Made by a program: the position numbers and the translations under genes. The notes beneath the pieces were generated by a model. The model had not been told where the DNA came from. It worked only from the letters and a program-made list of their open reading frames with translations, and ran no database searches. Below are positions 26,805 through 31,707 of a stretch of 55,676 nucleotides of DNA, piece after piece. The stretch is from positions 1-55,676 of the forward strand of contig JAGXFV010000037.1 of NCBI GenBank assembly GCA_024637095.1, written 5' to 3'. The DNA comes from Actinomycetes bacterium. GTDB taxonomy: Bacteria > Actinomycetota > Thermoleophilia > RBG-16-64-13. Each line of letters begins with the position of its first letter. Within the stretch, counting starts at the first letter, position 1.

Positions 26805-26984
26805 CGTTCCTATCCCGCACGCGATTCCCGGGGCCGCGGTCATCGTCACCACCCGAACTCGTTTGAGATTCCCCTCCCCGGGAAGAGCGGGCGCCAAAGC
26901 GGTCCGGCGGTAGAGTGCGAGTCAGTCGAGCGCCTGTAAGCGATTCTGCTGCCGCCCGGGGGCAACACGGATGAGGAGGCAGCG

Positions 26985-27206
26985 ATGGCGAAGGTTCCGG
27001 ACGAACAGCAATACATGGAGCGGTGCATCTGCGGCAACTGTCCGAGCTACCCGGGCGAGGGTGGCTTCTTCTGCGCGAAAGGGAAGAGCAGTCAGCCGAT
27101 CACGCGCCGAGGCTGCATCTGCGGAGACTGCGAGAACTTCAAAGAGTTCGACCTGAAAGACGGGTACTACTGCGCCGACGGCGCGGCCGGTGAAGGACCC
27201 CAGTAG
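26985..27206 (+). CDS. DUF2769-type cysteine-rich small protein
   Basis: 73 residues with two repeated cysteine modules: CICGNCPSYPGEGGFFC and CICGDCENFKEFDLKDGYYC. Each has C-x-C-x2-C plus one distal Cys, able to bind metal (Zn or Fe). DUF2769 is best known in methanogens and anaerobes; function unknown. A GAGGAGG site precedes the ATG, and a strong bidirectional-looking hairpin follows, separating it from the convergent selenoprotein operon. Confidence 0.85.
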   Translation: MAKVPDEQQYMERCICGNCPSYPGEGGFFCAKGKSSQPITRRGCICGDCENFKEFDLKDGYYCADGAAGEGPQ

Positions 27207-27235
27207 AGAGGCTGGAATACGTGCGCCCTTTGCCC

Positions 27236-27270
27236 TGCCGCACCGCCGCCTGAGGGGTGGCGGTGCGGCA
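27236..27270. terminator. Strong hairpin between convergent operons
   Basis: 12-bp perfect arms TGCCGCACCGCC (27236-27247) and GGCGGTGCGGCA (27259-27270) with an 11-nt loop, followed by TTTCT on the plus strand. It lies between the DUF2769 gene and the end of the convergent membrane selenoprotein gene and may terminate both. Confidence 0.8.
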
Positions 27271-27284
27271 TTTCTCATCTCCTG

Positions 27285-28445
27285 TCAGGCGGCTGCGAGC
27301 CTCTCCTCAATAACGCGATGCGCCTTCACGAATTTGCTCAAGATGAAGAGGTAGATGAGGATCGCCAAGTACACGCTGATGTAGTTGAGGGCCGAGATTC
27401 CGCTGTACTGGACGAAGAACCCGTAGACGTACACTCCCAAGACCTGGGAGCCGACAAAGGCTCACACGAATCCCCACTGAGATGGAGCAAAAGCCGTCTT
27501 GGAAAACTCCGTCTTCAGGTAGTCACGGACCACGTACACCGCCGCCACCCCCCAGCCAATGGCCAGGACGTAGGAGCCGGTTATCAGCAGCGACGTCGAC
27601 CCCGGCACGTTCAAGGAGACCTGAGGCTGCACGTACTCGGCCACGCGATAGGCACCCAGTCCCAGCAGGCAGGAGATGGGCACGACCAAGAAGAAGCCGG
27701 GCAGTATTGGGTTGGGGGGCAATTCTCGCGCCTTGATATGCGTGTAGAGTAGGAACCCCAGCTTGGCGACCAACATCAGGACTCCGATCGCCAGGGCAAA
27801 TATCGTCCCCGCGGCGGCGATACCGGCAACGACGTCGTTCTGGGCCATCGAGGTGATCCCGGAGCCGGTGAGCGTCACCAGGCCAAAGGCGAAGACGTCG
27901 AGCAGCCAGATGAAGTTGAACTGGGTGAGGTCGACGCCTTCCGAGAACCAGGTTCGGCCGACCGTGACTTCGAGGAAGACGAGAATGGCCAGAAGCAGGC
28001 CAAAGACGATCAGCGAAGGAAGCATGAACGCCTGCATGTGCGTGCTCATTTGCGGCACGAAGAAGCCGAAGGGAGCCCAGAAGACGTTCACCGTCATGGC
28101 GAGGGAAGCCACTATGGCGAAGATCCCCGCGTTCTGATTCTTGTGGGGATTGTTCACGAAGGCTCGGTAGGCTCCCGGCTCCCTGAGCCAACCCCACAGC
28201 CGACCGACGAAATATACCGTGAGCCCGAAGTTGATGAGTGTGAAGGCGAGCAATATGGCCACCAGGGGCAGGTAGAGGGCGCTCTCAGCGCCGGACAGGG
28301 TTCCCCAGGTGACATTGGACAGAGTGATGAGACCTTCGCCGTGGGGGATGGCGAACTGCAGGTAGTTGAAGGCCATGAGCGCGATGCCGCCCGCGGCCAG
28401 GGAGGACTGGAACAGCAACGGATGAAACGGGATCCGCAGTCTCAC
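27285..28445 (-). CDS. Polytopic membrane protein with in-frame TGA, probable selenoprotein
   Basis: Read through the TGA at 27462-27464 (codon 328), this is one 386-residue protein. It has a GTG start with AAGGAGGG located in the end of the upstream gene, and about nine or ten hydrophobic helices. The 58 codons after the TGA continue the same membrane-protein style (AFVGSQVLGVYVYGFFVQYSG, YLAILIYLFILSKFVKAHR) and end in TGA at 27285. Seventeen bases after the TGA starts the loop of a SECIS-like hairpin (27434-27450). Both observations favour Sec insertion over a nonsense mutation. The local motif is GFV-U-AF. The fold may be distantly related to SLAC1/TehA-type transporters, which is uncertain. 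Third gene of the operon, 2 bp after the ArsR-lipoyl gene. I recall automated annotation using a TsoY (seleno)protein family name for such proteins, which I could not check. Confidence 0.82.
27434..27450 (-). promoter_or_regulatory. Bacterial SECIS element in the membrane protein gene
   Basis: Minus-strand CTCCCA (27450-27445), loop GGTCT (27444-27440), TGGGAG (27439-27434): a perfect 6-bp stem capped by GGUCU, beginning 17 nt after the in-frame UGA. As I remember it, the E. coli fdhF SECIS also carries GGUCU at its tip, 18 nt after its UGA; the G and U there contact SelB. Confidence 0.85.
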
Positions 28446-28447
28446 CG

Positions 28448-29329
28448 TTAGCCCTCCTTGATCCCGCTGTAGACGGATTTGCAGGTGGGCGAGCTCTTGC
28501 CGGTCTTCGCCGCCTCCGCCGCTGCCGGAGTAGCGTGCTCCGTGCCCCCGAGTCGCCGAGCGTATGCCTCAGCGTCGAGTAGCTGGGCTTCCCACCCTTC
28601 TGTCGGCCGAATCTTGACCAGCCAGGTCTCCTGCGGATTTTCGTTGACCGCCGCCGCGGTGGCCTCGGGGTTGGCTTCCAGGGCCTGCCCGGCGAGGGGG
28701 CTGAGGAAGTACTTCATGTTCTTCTTGGTCGTGGCGAAGGCGATCTCCTGATCCACGACCAGCTCCTCGCCGGCCTCGGGAAAAACCTCGAGCTCGATGA
28801 GGCCGCCCATCAGGGCCACTCCCGGCTCGGACACTCCGACCACTACCGTGTCCCCGTCGGCGCCGGTCTCGCTCTTCACCCAGTACTGGCGTGCACCGTC
28901 GTAGAGCCGGTCTCCGGGCAAGTCGAAGTCCTTTCCCAGGAAGCCTTCGAGTTTTGCCATGATCTCCCCCTTGTCGTCTTTGGCCCACCTCGCGGCGAGC
29001 CCGTCTCCCGTTCTCAACTGCTCCTGGAGCACCTCGCGCAGAAGGTCGCAGGCCTGGACCATCTTCGGGTAGGCCACGCGGTAGTAGATCTCATTGCCGT
29101 CCCTGCGTGTGCGCACGAGGCCCAGGTGCCGCAATACGGCGAGGTGCTGGGAAACGAGTGGTTGCCTTGTTCCCACCATCTCCGCCAGGTCGTTCACCCT
29201 GCGTTCGCCGTCGCTCAGAACCTTCATCAGCTCTACGCGCAGGGGGTGGGCCAGGGTCTTGCACACCTCGGCGTGCATCTCGTAGAGTCTTGGGTCTATG
29301 CGCCTCTCTGCCGAATCGAACAGGGCCAT
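28448..29329 (-). CDS. ArsR-type repressor fused to a GcvH-like lipoyl domain
   Basis: 293 residues. Residues 18-105 are an ArsR winged helix (AHPLRVELMKVLSDGERRVN, RQPLVSQHLAVLRHLGLV, wing RRDGNEIYYRV) with Cys23 and Cys94, a possible dithiol/persulfide sensor pair. Residues 130-265 are a glycine-cleavage-H-like domain: YWVKSETGADGDTVVVGVSE, then TTKKNMKYFLSPLAG, where Lys203 aligns with the lipoylated lysine, and NENPQETWLVKIRP. The C-terminal tail holds Cys283. Lipoate carriers related to GcvH serve sulfur oxidation (LbpA of the sHdr pathway) as well as glycine cleavage. No glycine cleavage genes are nearby. It sits between two selenoprotein genes (19 bp and 2 bp gaps) and could sense the sulfur status through its own lipoyl group. 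Confidence 0.88.
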   Translation of the reverse strand: MALFDSAERRIDPRLYEMHAEVCKTLAHPLRVELMKVLSDGERRVNDLAEMVGTRQPLVSQHLAVLRHLGLVRTRRDGNEIYYRVAYPKMVQACDLLREVLQEQLRTGDGLAARWAKDDKGEIMAKLEGFLGKDFDLPGDRLYDGARQYWVKSETGADGDTVVVGVSEPGVALMGGLIELEVFPEAGEELVVDQEIAFATTKKNMKYFLSPLAGQALEANPEATAAAVNENPQETWLVKIRPTEGWEAQLLDAEAYARRLGGTEHATPAAAEAAKTGKSSPTCKSVYSGIKEG

Positions 29330-29348
29330 CAGCTCCTCAGACGTGTTG

Positions 29349-29702
29349 CTAGTAGATGAGTACCTTGTCCGCCTCCATCGTCCACTCGGCGAGTAGATCC
29401 AGGGAGCCGCGGACCGTGCCGTCGATCATGGGTAGGGACGCCAGGCCACGGGCGTCCATGCAACTGCCTCATAACCCGATATCGGCCTTCTTCGCCACGA
29501 GGCCCTTCAGCATGCGCTCCATGGAGTAGTAGCCTTCGGGCGGAGACTGGCCGGCCAGGGCGCAGGCGGTGGCGTCCGCCGTCAGGAAGACCTTCACCCT
29601 TGCGTCATCCTGCTTGGCCACGGCCAGCGCGTGGCGTAAAGCGTTGTATGAGCGCTCAGACCCGTACGGTGCGTCGTTGAGAACGAAGAGCACTGATGGC
29701 AT
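29349..29702 (-). CDS. DsrE-family protein with in-frame TGA, probable selenoprotein
   Basis: 117 residues when read through the TGA at 29469-29471 (codon 78). The N-terminal part VLFVLNDAPYGSERSYNALR, FLTADATACALAGQ, GYYSMERMLKGL is a DsrE/DsrF-like fold used for sulfur relay. After the TGA the frame continues GSCMDARGL ... SLDLLAEWTMEADKVLIY, which completes the family. Cys homologues, as I recall them, have C-G-T-C-MDARG here, so the TGA replaces the first Cys of a CxxC redox motif: U-G-S-C. A SECIS-like hairpin follows (29436-29457). First gene of the operon; the ATG is at 29702 with GGGGGGA upstream. Likely handles persulfide or selenium-bound sulfur. Confidence 0.9.
29436..29457 (-). 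promoter_or_regulatory. Bacterial SECIS element in the DsrE gene
   Basis: Minus-strand GGACGCC (29457-29451), loop CGTGGCCT (29450-29443), GGCGTCC (29442-29436): a perfect 7-bp stem, loop starting 18 nt after the in-frame UGA, with G near the start of the loop. Confidence 0.78.
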
Positions 29703-29742
29703 TGTGGTCCCCCCGGTAGGCCAGTGGTCGGACCAGCAGCAT

Positions 29743-29777
29743 ATCGCATTATCGCGATGTTGCAATCCCATTGTCAG
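29743..29777 (-). promoter_or_regulatory. Promoter with ArsR-like operator of the selenoprotein operon
   Basis: On the minus strand: -35 CTGACA (29777-29772), 18 bp, -10 GATAAT (29753-29748). The -10 overlaps the dyad ATCGC-n6-GCGAT (29743-29758), a plausible operator for the ArsR-lipoyl repressor encoded second in the operon. A weaker alternative is TTGCAA with TATGCT, 16 bp apart. Confidence 0.55.
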
Positions 29778-29821
29778 GCTTGGCGGAACGACCCCGGTCG
29801 ACCGCGTTCAATGGGGCTGCG

Positions 29822-31168
29822 TCAAGATCCGAACGCGAAGAGGGGCGGGAGGACGACGACTACGCCGGCGGCCCAGAGGGCGAAGACCGGGAGGTACCTC
29901 GTCTGCCAACGCGCCAGGCGATGGAAGGTGGCTCGCCCGGTGAGCAGCCGGAGAGAGAGCCAGGCAGCCGCGATCAGGTTCACCAGCAGTACCAGGTTGA
30001 GGCCGAGCGCGGCCACGCGGTTGGGGGTGAACCCGAGGTCGCCGACCCGGGCAAGCATCGAAGTGAGCACCATCATGTCGAGAACCAGGGCGGCGGCGAC
30101 CGCCACGAGCTGGACAACGTCCATGAAGCCGGCTCTCTGCGTCGACTCTCGTGCCGAAAGCCCGTAGAGAACGAGTCCGAGGACCACGATCAGCAAGACG
30201 TCGAAGACGGCGAGCTGTTCCCGGTCGAACTCACTACCGAGCCCGGATACCGCGTAGGTGAGGGCGGAGCCGGTCAACATCAGCGCGAACAGCGGGGTGA
30301 AGACCATGGTGAGCACGGGCGCCATGTTCTCGACAACGCTCTGCTTGGCTCCGACCAGCCAGGCGGCCACGATCACCGCGCCGGCAGCTCCCGAGGGAAT
30401 TACCCACTCGATGACGCTCTCGCCCAGGCCCGCCCGCACCGGTTCGAGGACGGCCAAGGTGAGCCCCATCAACACCCCTCCGCCGAGGGCGATGAGGACG
30501 TAGTAGATGAACCACTCCCCGCTGAAGCGCACGAAGTCCATGCGCCGCTCGTGAGAGCGCCACTCGCCGCCCACGTATGTGTAACCTACGGCGAACCACA
30601 GCGCCACGGGCAGGTGCAGCGCCGCGAGCATCTCGGTGGAAGATTCCGGGTCGAAGGGATAGAGGTTCATGACGAGGGCGCCCAGCACAAAGGGTGTGGC
30701 CGTCAGCAGGCTCTGCCGGAGGGGCAGCCCGCGTTGTTGGGCGAAGTACCAGGCGAGGAAAGGCAGCACAAAGAGGCTGACGTTGCGCATAAACCACGGC
30801 GAGGGATCACCCGACCAGCCGTCTCCTCTGAGCGCGATCTGGATCGTGACGGCTGCGGCGACGGCAAAGAGGAGTGCTTCGACCAGACCGTTCGAGGTGC
30901 GCCCCGACTCGGCCTTGGACGGCAACACGAGCTGTTTCCAGAGCCGGTCGCTGTGCTCCAGCGCGAACTCCCGGGACAGCCCGTCGATGTCGCCCATCCG
31001 CTTGACGGCGACCAGAAAGGCCTCGTCGGCGCTGAGACCGCCCGCTCCCAGGTCGGCCATCTGATCGCGCAGATGGGTTTCCAGCTCATCGATGTCAGGA
31101 TCAGCGACGGTCCGCGAACGGCCGACGTAGGCCCGCCATTCGGCGATCCGTGACTCGAGAACGTCCAT
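29822..31168 (-). CDS. Permease-prefix-domain membrane protein
   Basis: 448 residues. Residues 1-75 form a cytoplasmic permease prefix domain (IAEWRAYVGRSRTVADPDID, ELETHLRDQMADL, DEAFLVAVKRMGDIDGLSREFA), then about ten membrane helices of no recognised family. It lies 4 bp downstream of a PadR-type regulator, a frequent pair in which PadR controls the membrane gene. It may belong to an envelope-stress system. Confidence 0.85.
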   Translation of the reverse strand: MDVLESRIAEWRAYVGRSRTVADPDIDELETHLRDQMADLGAGGLSADEAFLVAVKRMGDIDGLSREFALEHSDRLWKQLVLPSKAESGRTSNGLVEALLFAVAAAVTIQIALRGDGWSGDPSPWFMRNVSLFVLPFLAWYFAQQRGLPLRQSLLTATPFVLGALVMNLYPFDPESSTEMLAALHLPVALWFAVGYTYVGGEWRSHERRMDFVRFSGEWFIYYVLIALGGGVLMGLTLAVLEPVRAGLGESVIEWVIPSGAAGAVIVAAWLVGAKQSVVENMAPVLTMVFTPLFALMLTGSALTYAVSGLGSEFDREQLAVFDVLLIVVLGLVLYGLSARESTQRAGFMDVVQLVAVAAALVLDMMVLTSMLARVGDLGFTPNRVAALGLNLVLLVNLIAAAWLSLRLLTGRATFHRLARWQTRYLPVFALWAAGVVVVLPPLFAFGS

Positions 31169-31172
31169 CTCT

Positions 31173-31541
31173 TTATACCTCCCCGGTTGCCGGCACGAGG
31201 TCGAACCGGGTCCAGGCGTCGTTTAGGGCGCGGGTGACCGCCGCCCACTGTCGTTTCTGCTCGGCGAGGGCCGCCTGGCCCTCCTCGGTGATCGCGTAGT
31301 ATTTGCGTCGGCGGCCTTCGGGTGGGATCCGCCAGTCAGTGGTCACGTAACCCAGGCGGTGGAGACGGTGGAGGAGCGGGTAGAGCATCCCGTCGGTCCA
31401 CTCCAGCTCTCCTCCGGATAGCTCCCGCACCCGCTTCAAAATTGCATATCCGTAGCTCTCGCCCTCATCGAGGATGGCGAGCACGAGCGGAGTGGCCGAC
31501 GCCGCCACTAGATCTTTGTCGATGTGTATCCGGCTGCTCAT
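31173..31541 (-). CDS. PadR-family transcriptional regulator
   Basis: 122 residues: VAASATPLVLAILDEGESYGYAILKRV, ELEWTDGMLYPLLHRLHRLGYV, and wing GRRRKYYAITEEGQ, the classic PadR-s1 winged helix, followed by a C-terminal dimer helix. The start at 31541 (MSSRIH) is chosen as the position where the conserved fold begins; twenty upstream codons are spurious. Operonic with the permease-prefix membrane gene; a dyad just upstream (31562-31578) could be its operator. Confidence 0.94.
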   Translation of the reverse strand: MSSRIHIDKDLVAASATPLVLAILDEGESYGYAILKRVRELSGGELEWTDGMLYPLLHRLHRLGYVTTDWRIPPEGRRRKYYAITEEGQAALAEQKRQWAAVTRALNDAWTRFDLVPATGEV

Positions 31542-31561
31542 TCCACTGGGTACTCTAGCAC

Positions 31562-31578
31562 CACTATACATAGCAGTG
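31562..31578. promoter_or_regulatory. Candidate PadR operator
   Basis: CACTATACATAGCAGTG: core CTAT-ac-ATAG dyad flanked by CAC/GTG, 20 bp upstream of the PadR ATG and near a TTGCAC/TAGAGT promoter on the minus strand. Confidence 0.45.
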
Positions 31579-31685
31579 CAAGGTGTTAGGGGGACGGCCA
31601 ACCAGCATACGGCACTGCGGGAGCGAGCGGCATGGTGTCATCGAGATCGGTAGGCCGGCAAGTGACTGAAGCCGTGGTAGTTTGA

Positions 31686-31707
31686 GTATTACTTGCAGCA
31701 GTAATAC
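31686..31707. promoter_or_regulatory. Operator-like dyad before the AbrB/PIN pair
   Basis: Perfect 8-bp arms GTATTACT (31686-31693) and AGTAATAC (31700-31707) around TGCAGC, 35 bp before the antitoxin ATG. The arms share GTATTAC/GTAATAC with the mazEF dyad at 44257-44276. Confidence 0.65.

Follow-up and report, generated by a model that had tools for sequence, protein, structure and literature searches.

Three genes on the minus strand of the window (the whole 55,676-nt stretch of DNA that was analysed) appear to form an operon. They would encode a selenocysteine (Sec)-containing DsrE-like sulfur/selenium (S/Se) carrier, an ArsR repressor-lipoyl carrier fusion, and the membrane protein TsoY (Table 1). 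The fusion gene stops 2 nt before the start codon of tsoY, a GTG at 28445 with AAGGAGGG standing just before it. The initial annotation had described the tsoY frame as a membrane protein interrupted by an in-frame TGA, with a GGUCU loop on a 6-bp stem 17 nt further on and 58 downstream codons to a natural stop. The minus-strand reading bore out each of these statements, the terminal codon being the TGA at 27287–27285. Because the internal and the terminal codons are both TGA, TGA is also a normal stop in this gene. The comparison with E. coli fdhF was right as well: in that gene the TGA is codon 140, and GGTCT follows it at 18 nt. The Sec motif of the window TsoY is U-A-F-V. A small Cys-rich open reading frame with repeated C-I-C-G-x-C motifs, recognised by eye, lies convergent with tsoY (26985–27206, plus strand).

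Table 1. Features of the tsoY locus in the window
Feature	Position	Strand	Details
tsoY, 386-residue selenoprotein with ten predicted transmembrane helices and likely SLAC1/TehA fold	27285..28445	-	NF047643 516.8 bits; predicted model
UGA codon 328 of tsoY, almost certainly read as Sec, aligned with the SLAC1/TehA gating Phe	27462..27464	-	
tsoY SECIS hairpin	27434..27450	-	CTCCCA-GGTCT-TGGGAG; begins 11 nt past the UGA
ArsR-type HTH (residues ~20–100) fused to GcvH-like lipoyl domain (~127–292)	28448..29329	-	
DsrE-like selenoprotein gene, 117 residues	29349..29702	-	UGSCMDARGL; stop TAG; PF02635 73.3 bits when read through
UGA codon 78 of the DsrE-like gene	29469..29471	-	
Candidate SECIS hairpin of the DsrE-like gene	29436..29457	-	GGACGCC-CGTGGCCT-GGCGTCC; begins 11 nt past the UGA

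The read-through protein matched the NCBIfam model NF047643 'selenoprotein TsoY' at 516.8 bits (cut-off 250; 510 bits on the genome DNA) and the TsoY_fam model NF047644 at 319 bits, and the name that the initial annotation had tentatively mentioned is the correct one. Its label of a new-type selenoprotein did not hold, the family being catalogued under both models and given as 'Selenoprotein TsoY, UxxV' in Table 1 of a 2026 review that cites Haft and Tolstoy, 2025; the review calls the functions of most predicted selenoproteins unclear (PMC13188914). The window gene is a further member of this named, uncharacterised family. Like known TsoY proteins, it scores far over the cut-off, has the U-x-x-V Sec motif and carries the UGA at the same column; unlike them, it belongs to an uncultured actinomycete lineage and has an ArsR-GcvH fusion gene and the gene of a Sec-containing DsrE beside it. 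Membership of the TsoABC operon was considered and rejected: TsoB, the rhodanese/DsbD-like member of that operon, stayed below its 805-bit cut-off in all 17 tsoY genomes, including the window's own.

A contig scan with the read-through protein yielded 15 relatives, and three family searches added more. Genomes with a TsoY_fam score over the cut-off numbered 3 of 396 in Actinomycetota, 13 of 398 in the phylum to which a Thermincola MAG belongs, and 6 of 193 in the family of Mesobacillus selenatarsenatis. Duplicates (loci L009, L023, L024, L056, L060, L062, L070, L071 and L073), sub-threshold matches (L025, L026, L065 and L072) and two incomplete copies (L029, which ends before codon 328, and L041, with a broken frame) were left out, and the alignment comprised 24 close and 5 distant proteins. 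At codon 328, where the initial annotation had proposed to align homologues, all 29 proteins have Sec or Cys and none stops: 23 of the 24 close homologues carry TGA, the remaining one (L035, Trichococcus) has Cys, and so do the five distant proteins (19–21% identity). The 23 distinct TGA-bearing genes come from several phyla, and one of them, that of the relative L027, is 92% identical and was assembled separately. The proposed search of the genome returned all four genes, namely selA (555 bits, over cut-off), selB (also over cut-off), the tRNA-Sec gene selC (74.9 bits, gathering 47) and a selD (397 bits) that itself has an in-frame TGA and is thus Sec-containing.

The hairpin carries less weight in the window gene than had been claimed. 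The statement that a nonsense mutation would not produce such a structure is too strong for this gene alone, since under a synonymous-codon null the hairpin arises by chance at P = 0.069, favoured by the GSQVLG protein motif and by GC-rich codons. Among the UGA-bearing tsoY genes the same null gave per-gene P values of 0.013–0.105, which are not to be multiplied because the genes are related. The six pairs are kept in 22 of these 23 genes, L053 keeping five, and the close Cys homologue L035 keeps three. It is because the hairpin is conserved together with the TGA that it amounts to more than chance. An Rfam scan of 26900–31700 returned no SECIS family and three sub-threshold matches of the chance type.

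Taken from these sequence comparisons, it is nearly certain that UGA 328 encodes Sec, and SelB and tRNA-Sec would read it so under the guidance of the downstream hairpin. The selenoprotein call of the initial annotation is supported: none of the findings it had named as refuting (homologues that all stop at the codon, a genome lacking selB or selC, reads showing another codon) was obtained. That tsoY is a pseudogene, whether by nonsense mutation or by sequencing error, has the TGA itself and nothing else in its favour; it is refuted by the homologues, with the same TGA and a matched hairpin in 23 distinct genes, and we give it practically no credence.

The DsrE-like gene is a second UGA gene in the operon, separated from tsoY by the ArsR-GcvH fusion, and was absent from the initial annotation. 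Its UGSC motif and its DsrE domain make it like the DsrE-like UxxC selenoproteins (PF02635) listed in Table 1 of PMC13188914; it differs from those in lying within a tsoY operon, where Sec and Cys versions alternate among the neighbours of tsoY. Among ten tsoY-linked DsrE homologues, TGA is found in seven (the window, L027, L077, L078, L079, L081 and L082) and a Cys codon in three (L032, L033 and L088). A hairpin follows the TGA in all seven, with per-gene P values of 0.012–0.21 (0.106 in the window; 0.012–0.034 in L077, L078, L079 and L081 under the synonymous null), and in the three Cys genes it does not stand out (P = 0.54–0.82). A second DsrE type, which has Cys only, adjoins other tsoY copies.

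The middle gene of the operon joins an ArsR-type domain (HTH_metalloreg 84.5 bits, cut-off 55) to a lipoyl domain (GCV_H 41.6 bits, cut-off 22.2) in which the lipoyl-type Lys is kept, the Lys of ESVK in E. coli GcvH being aligned with a Lys. The best equivalog for the ArsR domain was the BigR sulfite sensor, at 64.8 bits and below its cut-off of 155. It is possible that the fusion is a repressor sensing the state of a lipoyl-bound sulfur carrier. An ArsR-GcvH fusion is also present at L027 (5087–5998), and other tsoY loci have ArsR-rhodanese fusions instead.

An AlphaFold2 model of TsoY (pLDDT 86.3, pTM 0.88), built from the alignment of 29 rows, contains ten long helices, and residue 328 lies on the ninth of them (321–343, local pLDDT ~81). 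The ten best PDB matches of the model in Foldseek were all of the SLAC1 family. With VIA-align, the model aligned with SLAC1 (7en0) at Z 31.9 (rmsd 3.0, 303 residues aligned) and with HiTehA (3m71) at Z 29.9 (rmsd 3.0, 304 aligned); among the matches listed, 22 SLAC1/TehA-family entries had Z values of 26.6–31.9 and the first unrelated entry 16.5. In sequence comparisons, Pfam SLAC1 (PF03595) scored a marginal 29.6 bits against a gathering threshold of 27.9, identity to solved SLAC1/TehA members is 9–16%, and an hmmsearch profile search of PDB sequences with TsoY gave no match up to E = 1.

In HiTehA, the odd-numbered helices line the pore and Phe262 on TM9 is the gate (PMC11050165). We compiled 27 Actinomycetota PF03595 proteins and E. 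coli TehA as a SLAC1 set, and the gate column was Phe in 28/28 sequences. When TsoY was aligned to this set with hhalign (three set-ups, global and local; probability 40–81%, E 1.3e-4 to 2.6e-6), residue 328 fell on the gate Phe in 6/6 runs, and W324 fell on the Trp four residues before it in the same six. The segment F-A-P-S-Q-W-x3-U of TsoY thereby faces F-N-A-S-F-W-x3-F of E. coli TehA. The hhalign comparison of TsoY with the single E. coli TehA sequence gave no useful alignment, and the five distant Cys forms alone gave none with the SLAC1 set.

These data suggest that (i) TsoY likely has the SLAC1/TehA fold, as far as a predicted model can tell; and (ii) Sec328 likely occupies the gate position held by Phe262 in HiTehA, to judge by remote profile alignments and the same model. 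TsoY resembles the SLAC1/TehA (TDT) anion channels of PF03595 in its predicted fold, its ten transmembrane helices and the W-x3-[gate] pattern on TM9, and differs from them in having Sec or Cys, not Phe, as the gate residue and in its very low sequence identity. A literature search found no paper joining selenocysteine and SLAC1, the content of Haft and Tolstoy, 2025, being outside its coverage. A redox pair of Sec328 with Cys259 on TM7 was also considered. All 24 close homologues retain Cys259, where the distant ones have Thr; a direct bond is not supported, because Cys259 aligns with C212 of E. coli TehA, ~9 residues beyond the HiTehA pore residue Ile203.

The predicted fold also bears on the reading of the UGA as a real or regulated stop, by which the 327-residue product would be functional or read-through would report selenium status. 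Standard gene calling does end at the UGA, but the cut would remove TM9 and TM10, the gate helix included, all 24 close homologues show good conservation beyond the UGA, and the frame of the Cys homologue runs on without a break; we hold such a stop to be very improbable.

Neighbouring genes were compared at 26 close tsoY loci, with flanks of up to ~7 kb and longest-ORF gene calls; the counts are lower bounds, because many loci stop at contig ends. A selD gene was found near 12 of the 26 (L031–L034, L041 and L075–L081), a DsrE-like gene near 16, a LysR gene near 11, and a cysteine desulfurase near 8 (a 41-bit match at L038 was not counted). The best match of the LysR proteins of L031, L077 and L080 was NF040786 'selenium metabolism-associated', at 219–226 bits and under the cut-off of 250. 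A truncated, catalytically dead SelD beside tsoY was rejected as a gene-calling artefact: at 11 of the 12 loci the gene encodes a complete SelD and contains a UGA of its own, the start at L041 not being visible. The tsoY-linked selD is often a second copy in its genome (L031–L034 and L075–L081), and some Bacillota have three UGA genes per cluster, selD, dsrE and tsoY (e.g., L077–L079 and L081).

Within the above 398 genomes of the Thermincola MAG phylum, at least two selD matches were present in 8 of 11 selD-positive genomes with UGA-type tsoY vs. 16 of 249 without it (Fisher P = 2e-7, phylogeny ignored); in a twelfth genome with tsoY (G399), selD was not seen. YedE (E ≤ 1e-40) was present in 2 of the 11, both proteins being carried by these two genomes, vs. 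144 of the 249 without tsoY (Fisher P = 0.012, phylogeny ignored). An earlier model of bacterial selenium handling groups the candidate selenium transporter YedE with SelD, Sec lyase, LysR_Se and YedF, the last of which has a DsrE-like domain (PMC5322559). As in that system, TsoY is a ten-TM protein, and its gene has selD, LysR, desulfurase and DsrE-type genes as neighbours; unlike YedE (TIGR04112), it is of a different family and carries Sec, and YedE is rarer in company with tsoY among selD-positive genomes. TsoY thus seems to be in the place of YedE in some lineages. In the genome to which the window belongs, tsoY (contig C9) is not near selD (contig C40), so that the connection with selenium comes from the Bacillota loci.

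The Cys-type relatives lie in other company. Four of the five distant TsoY_fam genes (L084–L087) adjoin a gene for an FAD protein like sulfide:quinone reductase (SQR), and the fifth (L083) adjoins a CoA-disulfide-reductase-like gene; the FAD proteins of L084 and L086 matched only the type III sulfide:quinone reductase model, at 67–73 bits against a cut-off of 525. At L084, two SQR-like copies flank the TsoY-family gene. Among L036, L078 and L079, the surroundings of tsoY include dihydrolipoyl dehydrogenase, a GcvH-like gene (L036) and, downstream, electron-transfer genes of the NarI and TfrB/DsrK kinds, a set reminiscent of sulfur oxidation that uses lipoate.

The main rival explanation keeps Sec and the fold but has TsoY serve sulfur only, moving sulfide, persulfide, sulfite or thiosulfate within a lipoate/DsrE route of sulfur oxidation or detoxification, the selD link merely showing how Sec-decoding genes travel. 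The neighbours in the window are of the sulfur type (DsrE, lipoyl domain, ArsR) and speak for this explanation at least as strongly; the SQR-like genes at 4/5 distant Cys loci and the ArsR-rhodanese fusions near other tsoY copies agree with it, as does the placing of lipoate-binding proteins in the Hdr-like sulfur-oxidation pathway (PMC6067878). However, the UGA-type tsoY genes of Bacillota occur together with selD, a selenium-type LysR gene and a second copy of selD, and we regard a sulfur-only role as a serious contender that probably falls short. A channel for resistance to metals or metalloids (of the tellurite, arsenite or mercury type), in which Sec would bind a soft metal, would suit the TehA-like fold, the ArsR HTH upstream and an ACR3-like gene at the edge of L075. 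The recurrent partners, however, are S/Se carriers and selD rather than any metal-binding protein, and the ArsR domain scores best with a sulfite sensor, which makes a resistance channel improbable.

We therefore propose, with a probability of about one half, that TsoY is a SLAC1-fold channel or transporter for small Se/S anions with a chalcogen residue at its gate; we infer that it conducts or transports such anions in their small reduced forms. According to the profile alignment, Sec on TM9 would replace the pore-blocking Phe of TehA and SLAC1. Being nucleophilic and redox-active, Sec (Cys in relatives) could serve as a gate or substrate relay rather than as a passive aromatic plug, and might react either with the substrate or a redox partner. 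Candidate cargoes are selenide, sulfide, persulfide, or selenite/sulfite, which TsoY may pass to, or take from, the cytoplasmic DsrE carrier, with the ArsR-lipoyl protein as a putative load sensor. In Bacillota, TsoY would be tied to selenium supply through selD, and the distant Cys-type members would be tied to sulfide oxidation. A bolder version, which we put forward tentatively and think rather unlikely as it stands, is that of a selenocysteine-gated channel, in which Sec reacts reversibly with reduced Se/S to open the pore or relay atoms; TsoY would then be a dedicated importer or exporter of Se/S anions, feeding the Sec-containing DsrE and SelD and replacing YedE.

The selenoprotein family itself was already named, and what is added here is the predicted fold, the likely placing of Sec at the gate, a second gene with an in-frame UGA, and the link to selD. 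If Sec truly stands at a SLAC1-type gate, TehA and SLAC1, with their solved structures and electrophysiology, would offer a direct test bed. TsoY would then also point to a route by which Bacillota and Actinomycetota handle selenium or sulfide at the membrane.
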